Shown: in pieces, positions 36,651 to 55,810 of the stretch | How positions within the stretch are numbered: position 1 is the first letter of the stretch | How the letters are laid out: each line of letters starts with the position of its first letter | IMG/VR virus record: IMGVR_UViG_3300023184_005760 | Location: 1-55,810 of that record | Strand: one strand, 5' to 3' | Origin: a virus | DNA: 55,810 bases | Position numbers and translations under genes: made by a program | The notes under the pieces: model-generated | The model's database searches: none | Told to the model about the DNA's origin: nothing | Seen by the model: the letters and a program-made list of their open reading frames with translations, nothing else

Positions 36651-36677
36651 GGTTTGCAAGCATATAAAGAGCGTATT

Positions 36678-37109
36678 ATGTTACACACCATCACAAGTAT
36701 TACTGAAGAAATTGTTAATCTCCTAAAGGACGACCCAGTGCGCCCTGAGATACCGGCTGACCAACGAGTCAATTCCAACAGTCGAATATACATGCTCAAA
36801 GATGGAGACCAAACTCGTGCAATCACCTGTGTGAAGTTTTTGGATGTGATTCCAGCCGCAGTGGATGACTTGGTGGGCTTGGTGGGCAGTGCCAAAACTG
36901 CGGTATTTTATACAATTTGGTCATATGCATCTGGGGCAGGGCGTGAACTGATTGTTCGGGCCCAAGAATCAATCAAAGCGGAGTTTCCCAACATTGATAC
37001 CTATGTAACTTTGAGTCCCAAGACCGAGATGGCCAAGCGTTTCCATTTGAAGAATGGTGCCGGCATCTACCGCGAAAATTCTGACACCGTCAATTACATC
37101 TATAAGTAA
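36678..37109 (+). CDS. GNAT-like acetyltransferase-fold phage protein (143 aa)
   Basis: The C-terminal 75 residues, with VFYTIWSYASGAGRELIVRA, VTLSPKTEMAKRFHLKNGAG and ENSDTVNYIYK, match a group of small phage and bacterial proteins with a GNAT-like layout: a strand, a loop GxGxxL, a helix, then the LSPxTExAxxFHxKNG block. The N-terminal part is helical and variable. It probably acetylates a protein or small molecule, but the substrate is unknown. The ATG at 36678 has AAGAG upstream; a TTG at 36654 is rejected because it is within the leader. Confidence 0.72.
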   Translation: MLHTITSITEEIVNLLKDDPVRPEIPADQRVNSNSRIYMLKDGDQTRAITCVKFLDVIPAAVDDLVGLVGSAKTAVFYTIWSYASGAGRELIVRAQESIKAEFPNIDTYVTLSPKTEMAKRFHLKNGAGIYRENSDTVNYIYK

Positions 37110-40821: not shown

Positions 40822-42112
40822 ACTGTGTCCATATTTGAGTTAGTTCAGGATATAATGATCTAGCATCATATCCATAAACCTGATCCCACTTGCGACAGTG
40901 TTCCACCATGAGTTTCAATTGTGCATCTGCATCTGGTGGTTGATCAGTTGACAACAACTGCAAACACATTTCGGCCTGACGTTTGATTGCCACTTGAAAA
41001 TTGTGAGGGTCATTGGCATTGAAATCATCTGTGGCATTGATTGAATTCAATTGATCAATCAACTGCTGGTATTCAACAGCATACTGCTGTTTGACTGCTG
41101 ACGGCAGATTCACAGCATATAAAAATTTTGGATCGTAGCACAAATTGGATCTAACCAATAACTCATGCTCCAGAGCATACTTCAACAGTGTGTGGTAGTA
41201 GCCTATTGACAGCAAACTGGGTGCCGAACGCAGGGTCACTGTGATATTGGACTTGTTGCACAAATCTCGATAACTTTGGATATTTTTTAATACCTGGGCT
41301 GTGTTGGTGCCTTGCCTTTGATATGCGTTATGATCTGTAACAGTTTCAATGCTGATTTCAATTCCAACCCGTTTGAATTGTTTCAACTTGTGGATCAGGT
41401 CAGGTCGGAACACTGTGCCATTGGTCACAAAACTAAAACACAAATCAAACTTTTTGTGTGCAATCATGGTGTCCACCAAGTTTTCAAGGCGATCGGTCAA
41501 CAGGGTTTCACCACCCATGAAGTGAATGTTGTTTAAATTTTGAATAGTCAATATCTGTTGAACAAAATTGTTCCAGACTCGAGGATCACGAGTCCAATCC
41601 ACTCCCAGATATTTTTTGCTTTCTGTGATTCCCCATTGTACCTGTTGCGACGCAATGGTACTGCTGGCATTGGGCTGACACATTTTGCAGGCTAGATTAC
41701 AAAAATTGCCAAGATTGACGTGCAAGTCAATAGGCATGGTATCAGTAACACCGTTATTGCTGTACTCAAAGTGCTTGCGACTGGGACTTTGCAGATAACT
41801 TTGATCAAAGGCCTGTGCAAAAATCACACTCTTTTGATTTTCCTTGATGCGTTTGCTGTAACTTCCGTGTTGCTCTTCTAGATAACAAACCTTGCAAGGA
41901 GATATTTTTTGTATGCCTTGGATGCCTTGTCTAAACTCACGCACAGGTTCACTGTTGTACCATTGCTCAATGGTCATGTTGGAGATGTTGTACTGCCGAT
42001 CAGTGGCCGGATACAGCCGATGGTCCTCGCTACAACATATACCAAAACTACCGTCCCAGTATATTTGTAGACCGTACCAAGGTACATTGCAAAAAATATT
42101 TTGATTAGGCAC
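40811..42112 (-). CDS. Radical SAM protein with N-terminal SPASM-like domain (433 aa)
   Basis: An N-terminal cysteine domain has C8, C26, C27, C73 and C76 ([20 protein letters not shown], then [10 protein letters not shown]). The radical SAM core begins at C138-x3-C142-x2-C145 ([15 protein letters not shown]), with HFMGGETLL (about 196), FVTNGTVF (about 233) and GIEISIETV (about 254). This is the same auxiliary-cluster-first order as in the 2645 gene. The last 90 residues are helical. The substrate is unknown. It overlaps the ClpP stop by 8 bases on one side and the 139-residue gene on the other. Confidence 0.9.
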
Positions 42113-42698
42113 GTCGATCGAGTATTTTATCCACTAGTCCATAATCCAAGGCTTCTTGAGCTGACATAAAGAAATCACGTTCCATGTCTGCTGATAATTG
42201 CTCAAAGGTCTTGCCCTTGCTGTTGTGCTTGACATAGATCGTGGTCAGATACTCTTTCATCTTTTGGATTTCTCTTGCTTGGATTTGGATGTCTGTGGCT
42301 TGTCCATGAGCACCGCCCGATGGTTGGTGAATCATGTGTCGGGCATGGGGCAGGATCATGCGCTTGCCCGCGGCTCCTGCTGTACTTAGCAGACTTCCCA
42401 TGGAGCAGGCCTGTCCCATCACAATGGTCTGCACATCACACTTGATAAACTGCATGGTATCATAGATAGCCATGCCTGCTGTTACTGATCCACCCGGGCT
42501 GTTAATATATAGACTGATATCTTTGTCTGGATTATCACTTTCCAAAAACAACATTTGTGCTACCAGCAAACTGGCTGTGTGTTCCGATACTTCTGTGTCC
42601 AGCATGATCACACGGTCTTTGAGCAATCGGCTGTAGATGTCATAACTGCGTTCACCTTTTGAGGTTTGTTCAAGCACAATTGGCACTAGATTTGGCAT
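42105..42698 (-). CDS. clpP: ATP-dependent Clp protease proteolytic subunit (ClpP)
   Basis: The 197-residue protein is canonical Clp[38 protein letters not shown], the catalytic Ser99 in GQACSMGS, His124 in [10 protein letters not shown] and Asp171 in [13 protein letters not shown]. It forms a 14-mer chamber and needs a ClpA/ClpX partner, probably from the host. AAGGAG lies 6 bases before the ATG at 42698. An upstream promoter TTGCTT-17-TATACT overlaps the divergent head-internal gene start. It could process phage or host proteins; a second, divergent ClpP-like gene is at 44762. Confidence 0.95.
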
Positions 42699-42721
42699 GG
42701 GGTCTCCTTGTTGAAAGCATA

Positions 42722-42750
42722 AGTATAACAATATTCTTGGAAAAAAGCAA
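42722..42750 (-). promoter_or_regulatory. Sigma-70-like promoter for clpP
   Basis: TTGCTT (42745-42750), 17-bp spacer, TATACT (42722-42727). It overlaps the start of the divergent 42750 gene. Confidence 0.6.
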
Positions 42751-44761: not shown

Positions 44762-45349
44762 TTATTTACCATGACTCATTACACTAATATCATCGCAGAT
44801 GCCCAGTGCTAGGGCTTCTGATGCACTCAGCCAAACGTCTTGTGGTGGCAACAAGTTGTTGCGTATTTCTTCCCGGCCCAGTCCTGTACACAATTCATAG
44901 TGTGCAATCATTCGAGCCTGGGTGAGTTCAAACTCACGCATGGTAGCAAACAACTCATGTGCCTTGCCTTCATTGTACCAGGAGAATTGATGGCTTAGAA
45001 TTGAAGTATTGGGTGTGAGCACTCGGCGTCCGTGAGTGCCAGAAATAAAGATCAACAATCCTGCTGATGCAATGGTTCCCAACCCCACAGTTTTAACTGG
45101 AATCTGCGAACTCATCATCACATCAATCAAGGCAAATGCTGAACCCATGTCTCCACCATTGGAGCAGATCATCAGCAACAATTCTTTTTTCTTTTTTTTG
45201 GTCACATAGTTTTCGTAAAGTAACCATTCCACAACTGGTTTGATACTTTCATCATCCACGTCGCCCATGAAAACATACATGCCAGTGTCGGCAAGTGCTT
45301 GGGCGTGAGTTTGTTCTGTTTGGGTAGTTTCAATTATTGGCATGATCAT
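44762..45349 (-). CDS. Divergent ClpP-like serine protease (195 aa)
   Basis: The ClpP/crotonase-like fold is shown by MYVFMGDVDDESIKPVVEWL, MICSNGGDMGSAFALID, the nucleophile region GLGTIASAGLLIFISGTHGR and the histidine region ILSHQFSWYNEGKAHEL. The Ser in IASAG and the His in SHQFS are in place. It differs strongly from the other ClpP, so it may be an inactive partner subunit or a prohead-type protease. Two in-frame ATGs (45349, 45343) are possible. The leader has a hairpin and a full TATAAATA promoter and no good Shine-Dalgarno. Confidence 0.85.
   Translation of the reverse strand: MIMPIIETTQTEQTHAQALADTGMYVFMGDVDDESIKPVVEWLLYENYVTKKKKKELLLMICSNGGDMGSAFALIDVMMSSQIPVKTVGLGTIASAGLLIFISGTHGRRVLTPNTSILSHQFSWYNEGKAHELFATMREFELTQARMIAHYELCTGLGREEIRNNLLPPQDVWLSASEALALGICDDISVMSHGK
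44763..44768 (-). promoter_or_regulatory. TAAATA late-type box for the 44354 gene
   Basis: GGTAAATAAAAA on the minus strand, 22 bases before the ATG at 44740. It overlaps the stop codon of the ClpP-like gene. Confidence 0.45.
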
Positions 45350-48220: not shown

Positions 48221-49738
48221 ATGACCACATCATTTTGCCACAAAATTCTTGTGTTGGGCAACAATTCACTAATCACTAATCAAGAAGTCGATACTTTGGC
48301 ATCACAGGATCAAACTTGTAATTTTGGTCTGATCACTGATCCAGAATTCATACCCGATTTGCCGGGCTATTATCATACTACCTGTGTGGACCTATCAGTG
48401 GGTGAGATTGCCAGGATGGCACAATATTATGACAGCATAGTGTTGTCCTCCCAGACCGCCGATCAATGGTCCCATCCCACATTATTTTCTGCCACTGTAA
48501 AATTGTTAGAAGATCTGCAGGATCTAGGCCATAATGTTATCATGCAAAGTGCATCAACATCATCAAGAGTGATTTTTAAAAAAATTCTAGAAACCAACAA
48601 GAGTTTTTGCATTTATCCTTTTATGAATTTACAAATTCGCGATGGTGAGAACATGTTGTTGTGCTCAAGATCTCTCACGCCAGTGACCAAAATTCATAAT
48701 CTTGGGAACTGGCAAACCAATGCAGATTATCAACATATTAGAAAACAAATGCTTGCAGGTAACAAATTGCCTAACTTTTGTGGCTTTTGTTACAACATTG
48801 AAAACAAAGGCGGCAAGCCTGCAAGAATATTTGACACTTTAGAATGGGCCCAGCGATTGAATTTACAAAGCCTTGAAGATGCTGAAAAAATCACATCACC
48901 AATGTACTACGCAATCAGGCCCAGCAACAAATGCAATTTGATGTGTAGGTCCTGTGTGCCAAGAGATAGTCATCTGATAGATCAAGAATTCAAACGCATC
49001 AAGATTAAATTGGACAAAGGTTCTCAAGCCGCCGATGGCTATACAGGATTTGAAATTGTAAATTTTGACAATTTAAAACGCTTGTATGTGGCAGGGGGTG
49101 AACCCACTGTGATGCCCGAGTTGTATGATTTTTTACGCAAGTGCATAAGTCAACAACACACGGATTTTGAATTCATGATCAACACCAATGCAGTAAAACT
49201 CAGCGATACCCTGTTGGATTTGTTCAGTCATTTTTCAAATCTAGGATTCAGTACAAGTCTAGATGGTGTGGAACTGGTAAACGATTACATTAGATATCCA
49301 TCAAAATTTGAAAGTGTAATTGACAATATCAAAAAACTCCAAGCAAACGGGCACAAGGTATCATTTATTTCAGTTGTATCTATTTATAATGTGGCCAGTT
49401 TACACAGTCTATTGGAATTCCAAGACAAAGAATTCCCCGGCTCACCGGTACAATTGAATTTTGACAGTTTTTGTAATGATATTCAATCTGCCTTTAATCA
49501 TCCCAACTGTCAGTTGGTACTAGATTCACTGGAGCGATGCAAAAAAACCAAAGTGTATTTCAACTACAGCCGGGGTACCAAAAGTATCATTGACCAATTG
49601 CACCAACACTACAGCAATGCTCCGGCAGTTAACATGCATAAACTCAAAGAATTTTTTGACTTTAATAGAAAACTAGATCAGTCTAGAAATCAAAAACTAG
49701 CCGATTACATTCCAGAATTGGCAGTTTTTGAATGCTAA
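48221..49738 (+). CDS. Radical SAM protein with N-terminal extension and SPASM-like domain (505 aa)
   Basis: The first 120 residues form an extra Rossmann-like domain (HKILVLGNNSLITNQEVDTL; GLITDPEFIPDLPGY; NVIMQSASTSSRVIFKKIL). Residues 130-190 hold C130, C148, C187 and C190 in a SPASM-like arrangement (FCIYPFMNLQIRDGENMLLC). The radical SAM core starts at C238-x3-C242-x2-C245, with YVAGGEPTV (about 291) and FMINTNAV. The auxiliary domain again lies before the core. The substrate is unknown. It starts the plus-strand late block and is probably translated from a leaderless mRNA. Confidence 0.9.
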   Translation: MTTSFCHKILVLGNNSLITNQEVDTLASQDQTCNFGLITDPEFIPDLPGYYHTTCVDLSVGEIARMAQYYDSIVLSSQTADQWSHPTLFSATVKLLEDLQDLGHNVIMQSASTSSRVIFKKILETNKSFCIYPFMNLQIRDGENMLLCSRSLTPVTKIHNLGNWQTNADYQHIRKQMLAGNKLPNFCGFCYNIENKGGKPARIFDTLEWAQRLNLQSLEDAEKITSPMYYAIRPSNKCNLMCRSCVPRDSHLIDQEFKRIKIKLDKGSQAADGYTGFEIVNFDNLKRLYVAGGEPTVMPELYDFLRKCISQQHTDFEFMINTNAVKLSDTLLDLFSHFSNLGFSTSLDGVELVNDYIRYPSKFESVIDNIKKLQANGHKVSFISVVSIYNVASLHSLLEFQDKEFPGSPVQLNFDSFCNDIQSAFNHPNCQLVLDSLERCKKTKVYFNYSRGTKSIIDQLHQHYSNAPAVNMHKLKEFFDFNRKLDQSRNQKLADYIPELAVFEC

Positions 49739-49752
49739 ATCACACAGTGAGT

Positions 49753-49758
49753 TAAATA
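49753..49758 (+). promoter_or_regulatory. TAAATAC late-type promoter for the transporter gene
   Basis: GTTAAATACAAC lies 17 bases before the ATG at 49776, with AAAGGAG between. Confidence 0.5.
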
Positions 49759-49775
49759 CAACAAAGGAGACACAG

Positions 49776-50396
49776 ATGTTTGATATTTTTAAAGGCGTAG
49801 ATCGGGTCATGATGGCCAAATTGGTTGCATTACATATCTTCGTGATCGTAATCAGCAATGCTCTAGTTTCAATTCCGGTTGAGATCATGGGTGTGAAATT
49901 GACATGGGCCGCATTTACCTATCCCCTGGTAATTTTGGCAACAGATTTGACAGTACGATTGATTGGTAAAGGCATTGCTCGAGCAACCATTGCGGCAGCC
50001 TATCCACTTGCCATCATTGGCAGTATTGCTGTTGTGCTGTTAGAAGGCGCACCACAAAGTGTAGCATTACGAATTGGTTTTGGATCCGCCACAGCATACC
50101 TAATCGGTTGTTTGCTGGACGTTTATGTGTTCCAATATGTTCGCGAAAAGTTCACACAACAATGGTGGGCAGCTCCGGCACTCAGCATGGTTGTTGCTAA
50201 CTTCATCGACAGTTACGTATTCTTCAGTATTGCTTTCCAAGGTGGTGCAAACGAGTACATGGCCGCTAACTGGCCTGAGATTGCACTGAGCCAAAGTCTA
50301 TTGAAGATTTTAGTTGGCTTTGTTGTGTTCTTGCCAGCATATGGGCTATTACTAAACTTTATGAAGAAGCGTTTGGGCAACACCGATCAGGGTTAA
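49776..50396 (+). CDS. yhhQ: YhhQ/VUT-family queuosine-precursor transporter
   Basis: This 206-residue protein has five or six membrane helices and the family's central phrase, FTYPLVILATDLTVRLIGKG, with a later DSYVFFSIAF that fits NFxDSxxF. YhhQ imports queuine precursors such as preQ0/preQ1 in bacteria and is found in some phages that modify their DNA with deazaguanine. No queC/D/E/F or transglycosylase gene is in this window. The ATG at 49776 has GGAGAC 5-8 bases upstream; a longer frame from 49728 is rejected because it lacks a ribosome site. Confidence 0.88.
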   Translation: MFDIFKGVDRVMMAKLVALHIFVIVISNALVSIPVEIMGVKLTWAAFTYPLVILATDLTVRLIGKGIARATIAAAYPLAIIGSIAVVLLEGAPQSVALRIGFGSATAYLIGCLLDVYVFQYVREKFTQQWWAAPALSMVVANFIDSYVFFSIAFQGGANEYMAANWPEIALSQSLLKILVGFVVFLPAYGLLLNFMKKRLGNTDQG

Positions 50397-52575: not shown

Positions 52576-53286
52576 ATGACTGAACTAATTGCAACCCTGG
52601 TAATGACACACATTACTATCATTTGTGTCACGCTGTATTTGCATCGCGGCCAGGCCCACCGAGGCATTGAATTTCATCCTGTGCTAGAACACTTCATGAG
52701 ATTTTGGCTGTGGCTAACCACAGGCATGGTAACTAAACAGTGGGTGGCCATACACCGCAAGCATCACAGATTCAGTGACCAGGCGGGAGATCCACACTCA
52801 CCACATGTGTATGGAATTAAGAGAGTTTTCTTCAAAGGAGCATGGTTATATCATGCGGCATCAAAAGATTCGGTCATGGTTGACACATACGGTCGTGGTA
52901 CTCCTGCTGATTGGATGGAGCTTCACGTATACCAGCCTCACAGTAGACTTGGCATTGGCATTCTCTTTGTGCTCGACACCTTGATATTTGGTTGGTGGGG
53001 GCCTTTGATCTGGGGCATACAAATGATATGGATTCCGTTTTGGGCCGCAGGTGTTATTAATGGCGTAGGTCATTGGATAGGATATAGAAATGGACATACT
53101 AAAGATCATAGTCGTAATATTAGTCCTTGGGGCATTGTCATTGGTGGCGAAGAGTTGCATAACAACCACCACCTGGACCCAGCGAGTCCCAAACTCAGCA
53201 AGAATTGGTTTGAGTTTGATATAGGCTGGATGTGGCTGGGCTTGTTTAGGCTGCTAGGACTTGCCCGATTGCGTAATCAGGTGTAG
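52576..53286 (+). CDS. Fatty acid desaturase (delta-9 type, membrane di-iron)
   Basis: This 236-residue protein has the three histidine boxes of acyl-lipid/acyl-CoA desaturases: HRGQAH at 23-28, HRKHH at 60-64 and HNNHH at 195-199. Four membrane segments lie between them (THITIICVTLYL; FWLWLTTGM; GILFVLDTLIFGWWGPLIWG; IWIPFWAAGVI). The boxes bind two irons and introduce a double bond in an acyl chain, needing electron donors from the host. The order fits bacterial delta-9 desaturases, slightly short. It overlaps the convergent Mpo1-like gene stop by 10 bases. Confidence 0.92.
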   Translation: MTELIATLVMTHITIICVTLYLHRGQAHRGIEFHPVLEHFMRFWLWLTTGMVTKQWVAIHRKHHRFSDQAGDPHSPHVYGIKRVFFKGAWLYHAASKDSVMVDTYGRGTPADWMELHVYQPHSRLGIGILFVLDTLIFGWWGPLIWGIQMIWIPFWAAGVINGVGHWIGYRNGHTKDHSRNISPWGIVIGGEELHNNHHLDPASPKLSKNWFEFDIGWMWLGLFRLLGLARLRNQV

Positions 53287-53885
53287 TCTTGCTTTAGATC
53301 AGGATCAATCAACTGACCTTGCATCAAGTATATAGGGCTCTTGCGATAAATCCACACGTCATGGAATGGATCAGTCAATATCTTCAAACACCAAACCAAG
53401 GCAACTCGACGACTTTGTATAGCAGTGAGTTGAATCATTCTAAACACAACACCTGCCAAACCCAACCATAACCAGCCCATGCCCACACGATTCACAAATG
53501 TCATAGGATCGTTGTCGGGAATCAGCAGGTTCATCAACTCAGCATCAAAGAAGGCCAGCAAAGGCACAGCTACAAAACAGGCCATCAGCACTCGCTTGCG
53601 TTTGAGGTTGAATCCAATCTTGATTTTTTCCTTGTATTCAAACGTGGCATTGTTGTACTCGTCATAGCCGTGCGGCTCGAAGAAAAAGTGTCCGGCCTGA
53701 CGAGTGGTCATGGCAATCAACCAGGCCACATAGGCACTCACAACAGGATCAATGAACAAGTAAACATAAGCAATCAAAAAACTTGTGGCCGATATCAAGT
53801 GCAAAAATTGGTTGATTCTGCTGTGATGATAATAACGATGGTCGTCCCAGCGTTGTTCGCGTAGTGTTTCTAGTATGTCTTTCAT
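53277..53885 (-). CDS. Mpo1/DUF962-like membrane protein (202 aa)
   Basis: The protein has four or so hydrophobic segments and the pattern H20...N25...H29 (YYHHSRINQFLHLISATSF), then RQAGHFFFEPHG with H66 and E70. This is similar to DUF962/Mpo1 proteins, which have HxxxxNxxxH and GHxxFE motifs and use iron to oxidise 2-hydroxy fatty acids. If the call is right it would process acyl chains beside the desaturase. AAGGAAA lies 8 bases before the ATG. It follows the glycosyltransferase by 18 bases in the same direction. Confidence 0.65.
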   Translation of the reverse strand: MKDILETLREQRWDDHRYYHHSRINQFLHLISATSFLIAYVYLFIDPVVSAYVAWLIAMTTRQAGHFFFEPHGYDEYNNATFEYKEKIKIGFNLKRKRVLMACFVAVPLLAFFDAELMNLLIPDNDPMTFVNRVGMGWLWLGLAGVVFRMIQLTAIQSRRVALVWCLKILTDPFHDVWIYRKSPIYLMQGQLIDPDLKQDYT

Positions 53886-53903: not shown

Positions 53904-54914
53904 TTATTTGGTCCACAAGTGGTTGGGAGTGAGGTTGTCTCGGAAGATTTCCCATGCTCTCTCCCAACTCCAACGTTGACTACCTTCCCATACTTTCTGT
54001 CTATTTAAAAATAAACAGTCAGTAACTGCCTGTTTTAGATCCGGATTCATACAGCCAGTGATGCCTTCATCAATCACATCTTCGGGCCCTTGAACAGGAT
54101 AAGCCGCCACTGGAGTTCCGCAGGCCATGGCTTCAATCATCACAATACCAAAGGTTTCCCATTCACTAGGAAACACAAACACTTCTGCGTTGGCATAATA
54201 ACGTGCTAGATCCTCGCCTGTTTTGAATCCTGTAAAATGCACATCAGGATATTTTTTTTGGTAGGTTTCTAGCATGGGACCATCGCCTACCATGACTTTG
54301 AGATAGCCAGGATAATCCATTTCAAAGAATGCTTCTAGATTCTTTTCTTTGCTTACTCTGCTCACACACAAGAGATATCTGCTGGTTGTTTTTACCCTGT
54401 GTCCTGGATGGAATACGTCACGGTCAACACCGCGGGTCCAGGGAATAACTTCTCCATTGAACCCATGTGCTTGCAATTCTCGAACCATGGAGTCTGTTGT
54501 GGTTAGAACCTTGCCACTATGTTTATGAAACCATCGTACAAAACGCCAGGTAAGAGACTCAGGTATTCCAAATAACTTTTTGAGCCCTTCAGGAAATTTA
54601 GTGTGATAAGCGGTATTGTGGCGAATATTACCCAGTGAAAGATATGCTCTAGCCCACAGACCCAAAGGACCTTCTGTGGCGATGTGGATATAATCCGGAG
54701 CAATCTCCTCAATCTTCGCGCCCAAGTTCCTGGGATAGGCAATCTTGACTTCGTGGTAGCGAGGGCAATTAATGTAGCGGAACCTCCCGGGATCAATATA
54801 ATCAACATGATAACCATCCAGTACCGCACAAGTCTCGATGTTCTTGTAAGTGGTGACCACCCCATTAATTTGATCCGGCAAGTTGTCTGTTATTATCAAT
54901 ATCTTCTTGGTCAT
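53904..54914 (-). CDS. agt: GT4 glycosyltransferase, Agt-like (glycolipid synthase)
   Basis: The 336-residue enzyme begins KKILIITDNLPDQINGVVTT, a hallmark of lipid-glycosyltransferases of the SqdX/MgtA/Agt group. It has HIATEGPLGLWARAYL, TAYHTKFPEGL, the donor-site VSRVSKEKNLEAF and FVFPSEWETFGIVMIEAMAC, with the E-x7-E pair. Agt adds glucose or glucuronate to diacylglycerol, making phosphorus-free glycolipids in phosphate-starved bacteria. The gene starts inside the 3' end of the PlcP-like gene (50-base overlap), the same pairing as the bacterial plcP-agt operon. The donor sugar cannot be read from the sequence. Confidence 0.85.
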   Translation of the reverse strand: MTKKILIITDNLPDQINGVVTTYKNIETCAVLDGYHVDYIDPGRFRYINCPRYHEVKIAYPRNLGAKIEEIAPDYIHIATEGPLGLWARAYLSLGNIRHNTAYHTKFPEGLKKLFGIPESLTWRFVRWFHKHSGKVLTTTDSMVRELQAHGFNGEVIPWTRGVDRDVFHPGHRVKTTSRYLLCVSRVSKEKNLEAFFEMDYPGYLKVMVGDGPMLETYQKKYPDVHFTGFKTGEDLARYYANAEVFVFPSEWETFGIVMIEAMACGTPVAAYPVQGPEDVIDEGITGCMNPDLKQAVTDCLFLNRQKVWEGSQRWSWERAWEIFRDNLTPNHLWTK

Positions 54915-55659
54915 TTTTTCGTGTCCATGTTACAATTTCCCAGCGTCCGTCATGATGTTCTACCAATGCCGTACACGATTCTACCCAGTCACCATCGTTC
55001 ATGTAGGTCACACCATCAATCTCTTTTATTTCTGCGTGATGGATGTGACCGCACACCACGCCATCAAATCCTCTTTTCTTGCAGTAGGCCGCAAGATTCC
55101 TTTCAAAGTGAAACATGAAGTCAATGGCTTTTTTGACCCTATGCTTAAGAAACTGGCTAAGACTCCAGTAACCAAAACCCATACGATGGCGGATCCAATT
55201 AAATCTACTATTAAGTCCCAAGATAAAGTCATATGCTCGGTCTCCCAAAAAACTCAGCCACGGTGCCAGTCGGGTGATGCCATCAAACAAGTCACCGTGT
55301 ACCACAAGGTAGTGTCGGCCGTCTGCACCTATATGTTCACATTGATTGCAAATTTCTACTGTGCCGAATGAGGCTGCATATGGTATCATCGGACGCAGGA
55401 ATTCGTCATGATTTCCAGCCACGTATACAACCCTAGTGCCACGTTTAGCGTGACCAAGAACGCGACGAACGACATTGGTGTGGCTTTGTTTCCAACGCCA
55501 CTTGTTTTGTTGTATCTTCCACGCATCAATGATATCACCAACTAGGTATAGGGTATCGCATGAGTTGTGCTTTAAAAAATTGTTTAGTTCTTCTGCCTTG
55601 CAGTCTCTTGTGCCAAGGTGCACATCACTGATAAAAATACTGCGATACGTTTTCTGCAT
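54865..55659 (-). CDS. plcP: PlcP-like metallophosphoesterase (phospholipase C type)
   Basis: The 264-residue protein has SDVHLG (D12, H14), VGDIIDAW (D42), GNHDEF (N83-D85), VVHGDLFD (H121) and GHIHHAEI (H205, H207). It ends YMNDGDWVESCTALVEHHDG followed by WEIVTW, which closely follows PlcP of Sinorhizobium meliloti and marine bacteria. PlcP cuts the head group of phosphatidylcholine and similar lipids to give diacylglycerol. It is often annotated as UDP-2,3-diacylglucosamine hydrolase (LpxH-like), but the WVESCTA end and the next gene favour PlcP. The ATG is 4 bases after TAAATA with no Shine-Dalgarno. Confidence 0.88.
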   Translation of the reverse strand: MQKTYRSIFISDVHLGTRDCKAEELNNFLKHNSCDTLYLVGDIIDAWKIQQNKWRWKQSHTNVVRRVLGHAKRGTRVVYVAGNHDEFLRPMIPYAASFGTVEICNQCEHIGADGRHYLVVHGDLFDGITRLAPWLSFLGDRAYDFILGLNSRFNWIRHRMGFGYWSLSQFLKHRVKKAIDFMFHFERNLAAYCKKRGFDGVVCGHIHHAEIKEIDGVTYMNDGDWVESCTALVEHHDGRWEIVTWTRKNDQEDIDNNRQLAGSN

Positions 55660-55663
55660 CTAG

Positions 55664-55669
55664 TATTTA
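55664..55669 (-). promoter_or_regulatory. TAAATACT box 4 bases before plcP (leaderless)
   Basis: The minus strand reads TAAATA-CTAG-ATG. It places the plcP-agt pair under late-type control. Confidence 0.5.
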
Positions 55670-55684
55670 GGCATATTTGTGTTA

Positions 55685-55810
55685 CTATTTTGTTACAAAC
55701 ATTTGATCCACAAAGTCTAACAATAGAGTATGATGTTGGCCTCTGTGATATCGACCACGCATCCATGAGTAACTGTCGTACCAGAATTGTTCACTTTCAG
55801 GATGACATCC
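55685..55810 (-). CDS. C-terminal end of a protein running off the right edge
   Basis: The open frame from base 55810 to a TAG at 55685 encodes GCHPESEQFWYDSYSWMRGR, then YHRGQHHTLLLDFVDQMFVT K. The Trp/Tyr/His-rich text looks like a real protein end, and the other frames contain stops or poor composition. The remainder is outside the window, so no function can be given. Confidence 0.6.
   Translation of the reverse strand, partial: GCHPESEQFWYDSYSWMRGRYHRGQHHTLLLDFVDQMFVTK

Follow-up and report, generated by a model that had tools for sequence, protein, structure and literature searches.

The 55,810-base virus record IMGVR_UViG_3300023184_005760 of IMG/VR, analysed here over its full length and referred to as the window, carries near its right end, on the minus strand, a gene for a PlcP-like metallophosphoesterase followed by a gene for an Agt-type GT4 glycosyltransferase. 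We consider that these genes probably constitute a phage-borne lipid-remodelling operon, likely under the control of the host regulator PhoB. In a phosphate-starved host, PhoB would act through a Pho-box-like repeat to switch on the viral plcP-agt message, PlcP would strip the phosphorylated head group off host phospholipids to leave diacylglycerol (DAG), and the overlapping Agt-type enzyme would add a sugar from a UDP-sugar, giving a phosphorus-free glycolipid with which the membrane would stay intact. Because what a PlcP-type enzyme sets free is a phosphorylated head group, phosphate would become available only indirectly, head-group phosphate joining the pool for viral DNA after further steps. 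The module is real, frequent in the virus sequence collection and correctly named; what is new is a Pho-box-like promoter common to pstS, the occurrence of a GT2 as alternative partner, and a changed catalytic residue in the viral GT4, which leaves the product open.

A conserved gene pair related to plcP and agt1

The pair comprises the following features:
54865..55659, minus strand: plcP-like metallophosphoesterase, 264 amino acids; PF00149, 47.6 bits (cut-off 21.5)
53904..54914, minus strand: agt-like GT4 glycosyltransferase, 336 amino acids; PF00534, 88.6 bits (cut-off 26.4)
54865..54914, minus strand: overlap of the two genes, exactly 50 bases, with the phosphoesterase upstream

Our reading is supported because, among relatives whose function is known, the nearest are homologues of the proven pair PA3219 and PA3218, arranged in the same order. 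The phosphoesterase shares 57.8% identity, over 90% of its length, with a Pseudomonas aeruginosa protein encoded on plasmid pHOU1-1, and the GT4 enzyme is 40.4% identical over 95% to the glycosyltransferase of the same locus. The neighbours of the PlcP homologue on this plasmid are that glycosyltransferase, CyaB (which we take to be PA3217) and an Mpo1-like protein, and we read the locus as a homologue of PA3219-PA3218. Mutants and expression have identified PA3219 as PlcP and PA3218 as Agt1 of the phosphate-starvation glycolipid pathway: the glycolipid MGDG formed under phosphate stress is absent in agt1 and plcP mutants, and Agt1 suffices for MGDG formation in Escherichia coli (PMC8528852, excerpt). 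Since PA3219 itself shares 47% identity with the PlcP of Phaeobacter MED193 (PMC8528852, excerpt), the window protein is nearer PA3219, judged by the plasmid homologue, than PA3219 is to another proven PlcP. The sequence-only reading had proposed a match to PlcP and Agt, the gene order of the bacterial pathway and an overlap of 50 bases; these identities and the trees below bear out the match, the order is that of PA3219-PA3218, and the overlap is exact.

Among 299 Pseudomonadota genomes, phosphoesterase relatives (E value of 1e-15 or better) were found in 102 genomes at 105 places, and at 62 of these places a strong glycosyltransferase relative (at least 180 bits, a cut of our own) lies directly downstream on the same strand. 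Both genes occur in 77 genomes, the phosphoesterase alone in 25, the transferase alone in 7 and neither in 190.

In viruses the association was assessed in two scans of IMG/VR, one for the phosphoesterase, which gave at least 599 relatives and of which the best 80 loci were used, and one for the transferase (best 80 of 300). Over both scans together 102 loci have room downstream, a mixed count; the unbiased count is that of the 80 phosphoesterase-scan loci. Among these, 58 carry a GT4 relative on the same strand no more than 2.5 kb downstream, 20 carry a GT2 in its place, 2 do not extend far enough for a decision, and none has both or neither, so that a glycosyltransferase follows the phosphoesterase in 78 of 78 assessable loci (best 80 of at least 599). 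When the same loci were counted with the score cut raised and the length limit extended, 56 had GT4, 5 were too short and 19 were without GT4; on this count the two genes overlap in 39 of the 56 GT4-paired loci, in 13 of them by about the window's length. The GT2 enzyme (for example L064 4907-5629, PF00535) belongs to a different Pfam family from GT4, and the slot after plcP is thus filled by two unrelated transferases. The gene pair is real and its arrangement is not due to chance, since the 58 loci with a downstream GT4 were fetched by the phosphoesterase alone.

Both genes are under purifying selection. No internal stop was found in 16 rows of plcP and 16 of agt, the window counted in, and the median ratio of nonsynonymous to synonymous substitution rates is 0.064 for plcP (unsaturated pairs only 12 of 120) and 0.131 for agt (101 of 120). 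As a side observation, about ten loci have a RimK-type ATP-grasp ligase between plcP and the GT4 gene (for example L095 3105-4004), and open reading frames classed by eye as endonuclease-like occupy that place in L131 (3290-3940) and L156 (2819-3457).

The glycosyltransferase is Agt-like with a derived active site

For the phylogenetic trees, the phage rows were taken from the loci most similar to the window (best 80 per scan) and dereplicated from 150 to 38 phosphoesterases and from 130 to 23 transferases, with short rows dropped; the window brings these to 39 and 24. Because the rows were chosen by likeness to the window, the single phage clades described below hold for its near relatives. 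The bacterial rows came from the 30 best loci per search, two further loci (the whole yield of a genome-contig scan) and the references.

In the transferase tree (65 rows), the 24 phage rows form a single clade (support 100) nested among the Agt-like rows, next to L209 (88) and Agt1 (93) and apart from the Agt2 reference, MgtA and the E. coli enzymes WaaG and WaaB. The Agt2 reference is the transferase of locus L237, so taken on the assumption that PA0842 adjoins plcR and plcH. An identity as a lipopolysaccharide (LPS)-core enzyme was rejected on this tree, in which the WaaG and WaaB branches are very long and their split from the remaining rows is weakly supported (76).

The active site departs from that of the bacterial relatives. 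The glycosyltransferase GTcp of SAR11 strain HTCC7211 relies on His104, Arg163, Trp320 and Asp256, and changing Asp256 to Glu costs more than 90% of its activity (PMC8231724, excerpt). With these positions matched by the GTcp motifs, the GTcp sequence itself standing outside the alignment, the equivalents of the first three (His104, Arg161 and Trp317 in the window) are present in 24 of 24 phage rows, Agt1 having Lys at the Arg position. At the catalytic Asp position, 22 of the 24 phage rows have Glu (Glu253 in the window), whereas Agt1 and 35 of 35 bacterial rows have Asp; just before it, 22 phage rows carry Trp and all 35 bacterial rows carry Thr. L023 and L058, the most divergent phage rows, retain Asp.

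By these alignments the phage enzyme is an Agt-like protein whose active site is derived, and Glu in place of Asp in most phage transferases means that the sugar is not deducible from the family. By analogy with GTcp, the sugar or the reaction may differ in the phage enzymes. It is almost an even question whether, beside a PlcP acting as stated, the viral GT4 has changed its donor (for example to glucuronic acid) or its acceptor (to another lipid). The Trp-Glu pair in place of Thr-Asp speaks for such a change, as does the Glu found at the same site in the reference taken as Agt2, a glucuronic acid lipid enzyme; moreover, the GT2 that fills the GT4 slot in 20 of 78 loci indicates that the second step is changeable. 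On the other side, the residues at the positions with which GTcp contacts DAG are kept throughout the phage rows, as matched by motif, and the phage clade lies near Agt1 and away from Agt2.

A Pho-box-like repeat precedes the viral plcP genes

Two elements lie ahead of plcP in the window:
55681..55697, minus strand: Pho-box-like direct repeat TGTAACAAAATAGTAAC, 11 of 12 positions
55664..55669, minus strand: TAAATA promoter-like element, 11 bases past the repeat and 4 bases before the ATG

The repeat preceding the phage plcP genes has the form TGT[AC]A[CT]-N5-TGT[AC]A[CT], with a period of 11 bases. Within the 100 bases before each gene, at least 11 of the 12 positions are matched in 72 of 105 plcP upstreams (69%) and all 12 in 34%, while among 805 other genes of the same loci 3% reach 11 and 1% reach 12, and among shuffled sequences 0.3% and none. 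At no other spacing between 7 and 16 do more than 9% of the plcP upstreams reach 11 of 12, so that the peak is at 11 only, and in dereplicated sets 44 of 67 and 33 of 52 upstreams still do so. The A-type half-site was picked post hoc from the listed upstreams; the spacing controls, the control genes, the dereplication and the recovery of pstS served as checks on it. The published Pho box consensus CTGTCATNNNNCTGTCAT (PMC8528852, excerpt) has the same 11-base period, and some phage copies, for example in L009 and L052, have a C-type half-site. On this motif resemblance the window plcP would carry a mark of the Pho regulon, an upstream repeat of period 11.

In the window, the first half of the repeat lies inside the last codons of the upstream gene, and shuffled versions of the window hold 0.15 sites of repeat plus TAAATA per strand, which means that the window alone proves little and that the statistics rest on its relatives. 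Of the 72 repeat-bearing upstreams, 25 have TAAATA 11 bases after the repeat and 45 have it 21-22 bases after, two placements that differ by roughly one turn of the helix. In 80 of 105 plcP genes, compared with 70 of 805 controls, TAAATA comes to an end 2-8 bases ahead of the ATG; since an element so near the start codon leaves no room for a ribosome-binding site, this arrangement suggests a leaderless plcP message. The T4 late promoter TATAAATA was found in none of 106 upstreams.

The likening to a Pho box is supported because the repeat also precedes pstS. It stands before three of three assessed control genes of the PBP_like_2 family (PF12849), which we read as PstS. In 29 virus records, the strict pattern occurs at 14 places in 13 records and the reversed pattern at none; downstream of these places lie plcP (8), pstS (2) and a gene for a short protein (4), and both pstS genes found in the records are preceded by the strict repeat. 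The repeat was also observed before two families near plcP with no Pfam match, in 7 of 7 and 7 of 8 assessed genes (L104 5064-5711, L010 5772-6125 and relatives), which makes them candidates for new phage phosphate-starvation genes. Separately, the short protein behind the repeat (L259, L260, L265 and L269) shares by eye the KDDPVRP stretch of the window gene at 36654-37109 (plus strand), which matches part of malonyl-CoA decarboxylase (PF05292) and whose own upstream has TAAATA and no repeat that reaches 11 of 12 positions. As a positive control, 7 of 20 assessable bacterial plcP upstreams (38 loci listed) reach 11 of 12; this control is weak because the start sites are uncertain.

Binding of the repeat by a phage regulator instead of host PhoB appears unlikely. 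Such a regulator would fit the phage-like position of the repeat and its TAAATA element, an A-type half-site unlike CTGTCATNNNNCTGTCAT, and the occurrence behind the repeat of another gene that is no known phosphate gene. Against it stand the 11-base period, identical to that of the published Pho box, the copies with a C-type half-site, and the presence of the repeat before pstS.

The same repeat bears on what the virus would gain. The main benefit could lie not in phosphorus but in an altered envelope that excludes other phages, changes receptors or eases lysis, an explanation we also regard as improbable. Lipid composition affects phage attachment in other bacteria (PMC9938194, excerpt), and a desaturase and an Mpo1-like gene lie beside the pair, both of which would suit an envelope function; however, the Pho-box-like repeat common to pstS ties the genes to phosphate starvation.

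The phosphoesterase groups with PlcP and apart from LpxH

The phosphoesterase tree (96 rows), a quick search with several long branches and with Shimodaira-Hasegawa-like approximate likelihood ratio (SH-aLRT) supports only, gathers all 15 LpxH rows into a single clade (100) and all 39 phage rows into a second one (99), which falls on the PlcP side, with the window among PlcP-like rows that include the PA3219 and Sinorhizobium meliloti homologues. The nearest neighbours of the phage clade are phages Mosig and S-SRM01 and two bacterial rows, with lower support (84). The metal-binding residues D-x-H, GD, GNH, H and GHxH are invariant in all 39 phage rows, which also all read GNHDE; none has the GNRDF found in 15 of 15 LpxH rows. 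An LpxH identity was rejected on these grounds and on the model scores. The two LpxH models of NCBIfam give the window protein 49.3 bits (cut-off 134) and 37.8 bits (cut-off 190.35), and in 60 Pseudomonadota genomes the LpxH model splits its matches cleanly into 14 at 198 bits or more and 16 at 50.4 or less, the PA3219 homologue scoring 44.5; besides, genomes G038, G046, G085 and G089 hold both kinds.

Structure prediction, which the sequence-only reading had proposed as a check, did not separate the functions. LpxH chains make up the ten best PDB matches to the model of the phosphoesterase (predicted local distance difference test score 73.7), and the transferase model matches many GT-B enzymes, with PimA at rank 43, so that for neither protein do the fold matches tell the two candidate functions apart. 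It is very improbable that the phosphoesterase is LpxH proper and that the two genes serve to make or alter lipid A or LPS, even though the best NCBIfam models and the ten best structural matches are LpxH and public records label such genes UDP-2,3-diacylglucosamine diphosphatase or hydrolase, given the scores far under the cut-offs, their bimodal distribution, the GNRDF/GNHDE difference, the split in the tree and the genomes carrying both. The placement that the sequence-only reading had named as contrary to its proposal, with the phosphoesterase within LpxH and the transferase within the LPS-core enzymes, is seen neither in the trees nor in the motifs.

Neighbouring genes and other features of the window

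The genes around the pair are:
55685..55810, minus strand: 3' end of an amidotransferase-like gene, cut by the window end, read from sequence
53277..53885, minus strand: Mpo1-like membrane protein, 202 amino acids; PF06127, 20.1 bits, under the cut-off of 24; possible accessory
52576..53286, plus strand: DesA-type fatty acid desaturase, 236 amino acids; NF049918, 384.3 bits, just under the cut-off of 400; possible accessory

The peptide of the amidotransferase-like fragment also ends L004 3313-3975, and a near copy in L007 matches PF09825/PF00117. In L004, with a phosphoesterase 96% identical to that of the window, the order is pstS, amidotransferase-like gene, plcP, agt and Mpo1-like gene, followed by a convergent desaturase gene; pstS thus stands two genes ahead of plcP, separated from it by the single amidotransferase-like gene, and the window stops short of where pstS would lie by this order. 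In the window, too, the desaturase gene is convergent to the plcP, agt and Mpo1-like genes. The Mpo1-like gene occurs in 5 of the 80 phosphoesterase-scan loci (best 80 of at least 599), and desaturase relatives in 18 of the 29 plcP-bearing virus records; comparison of the desaturase with 50,697 deposited phage records gave no match at 1e-5.

Phage-like matches in the window include a clamp loader, a tail fibre, an endolysin, PhoH, a GroES-like protein and a head-maturation protease (PHROG), and there are further matches to NAD synthase, superoxide dismutase and a radical SAM protein. The window has no match to the Gp23 capsid protein; such matches occur in 7 of 30 records (the window included), one of the 7 being a short piece, and a terminase occurs in 14 of the 29 plcP-bearing records, which may be fragments. 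The nearest named clamp loaders are those of Pseudomonas phage Callisto and its relatives, at 49.7% too distant for naming the host. Additionally, a gene for a twitch-domain radical SAM protein is followed by a queuosine-precursor transporter-like gene (48221-50396, plus strand), and two ClpP-like genes resembling head-maturation proteases are separated by about 2 kb (42105-42731 and 44762-45349, both minus strand).

Relation to known systems

The nearest known system, plcP-agt1 (PA3219-PA3218) of P. aeruginosa, shares both enzymes, their order and their adjacency, and a Pho box is reported upstream there (PMC8528852, excerpt); in contrast, the phage genes overlap by 50 bases, form their own clades and have TAAATA near the ATG, and Agt1 keeps the catalytic Asp. 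In SAR11 strain HTCC7211 and other marine bacteria, plcP is likewise followed by an Agt-type transferase gene, and GTcp makes glucosyl-, galactosyl- and glucuronosyl-diacylglycerol (PMC4796936 and PMC8231724, excerpts); these systems are bacterial, and GTcp needs Asp256, whose motif-matched position holds Glu in most phage rows. LpxH belongs to the same superfamily and is the nearest solved fold, but differs in its GNRDF signature, its separate clade and its far higher model scores.

Among phages, PlcP-like relatives occur in Pelagibacter phage Mosig (48.1% identity), where the gene is divergent from an adjoining putative phosphate ABC transporter gene, and in Synechococcus phage S-SRM01 (35.6%); both differ from the window in that a protein search found no Agt-like gene, and the proteins are labelled UDP-2,3-diacylglucosamine enzymes. 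A TTTAAC/CTTAAC pair was seen by eye in Mosig. Control of phage genes by host PhoB has a precedent in pstS of P-SSM2 and some genes of S-PM2, which have Pho boxes; these are uptake or nucleotide genes with the cyanobacterial box PyTTAAPyPyT/A, and no lipid pathway is involved (PMC10976474, excerpt).

The sequence-only reading knew of no described phage plcP-agt operon, which agrees with full-text searches of open-licence papers: among the papers listed, none has a title or opening of the abstract that describes a phage plcP or such an operon. The main text of the phage phosphorus gene survey PMC10987575 contains neither 'plcP' nor 'phospholipase', and in the excerpted text its listed genes concern uptake, regulation, and soluble and mineral phosphorus, not the host membrane. 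The pelagimyophage survey PMC7029224 mentions fabF and a desaturase and not plcP, the Lake Baikal virus study PMC7678222 discusses a desaturase and not plcP, the S-SRM01 paper PMC8557907 does not mention the PlcP-like enzyme, and PMC8163748 does not mention Mosig. The excerpted text of PMC9804370, on host lipid renovation and phage therapy, names no phage-borne PlcP.

Discussion

Several observations weigh against a phage-borne remodelling operon under host PhoB. The altered catalytic residue, in view of what the same substitution cost GTcp, bears on the second enzyme. In addition, 25 of the 102 phosphoesterase-bearing bacterial genomes have no strong transferase relative, which indicates that plcP works with other partners too. 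The remaining points concern regulation: 33 of 105 plcP upstreams fall below 11 of 12 positions, the half-site was chosen after the fact, the published consensus (CTGTCATN4CTGTCAT) shows a small excess only (9.4% of 106 upstreams, compared with 2.2% of shuffles, reach at least 11 of 14 positions), the window repeat is imperfect and half within coding sequence, pstS occurs in only 2 of the 29 records, and a scan of phage Mosig reached 9 of 12 positions only. Besides, our reading presumes both a host PhoB and a fitting host membrane.

More tentatively, it is possible that many bacterial viruses have a PhoB-read regulon of their own centred on membrane mining rather than on the uptake of phosphate, with PlcP plus GT4 or GT2, often a desaturase, and, from the altered GT4 with its Trp-Glu pair, a glycolipid not made by the host Agt.

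Phages need much phosphorus for their DNA, and a remodelling operon of this kind, if our reading is true, would make the host membrane a phosphorus reserve for virus production. Infection could then be linked to the non-phosphorus lipids measured in nature, and the host's own PhoB would be steering a viral membrane pathway. With at least 599 phosphoesterase relatives among IMG/VR stretches, the trait is not rare.

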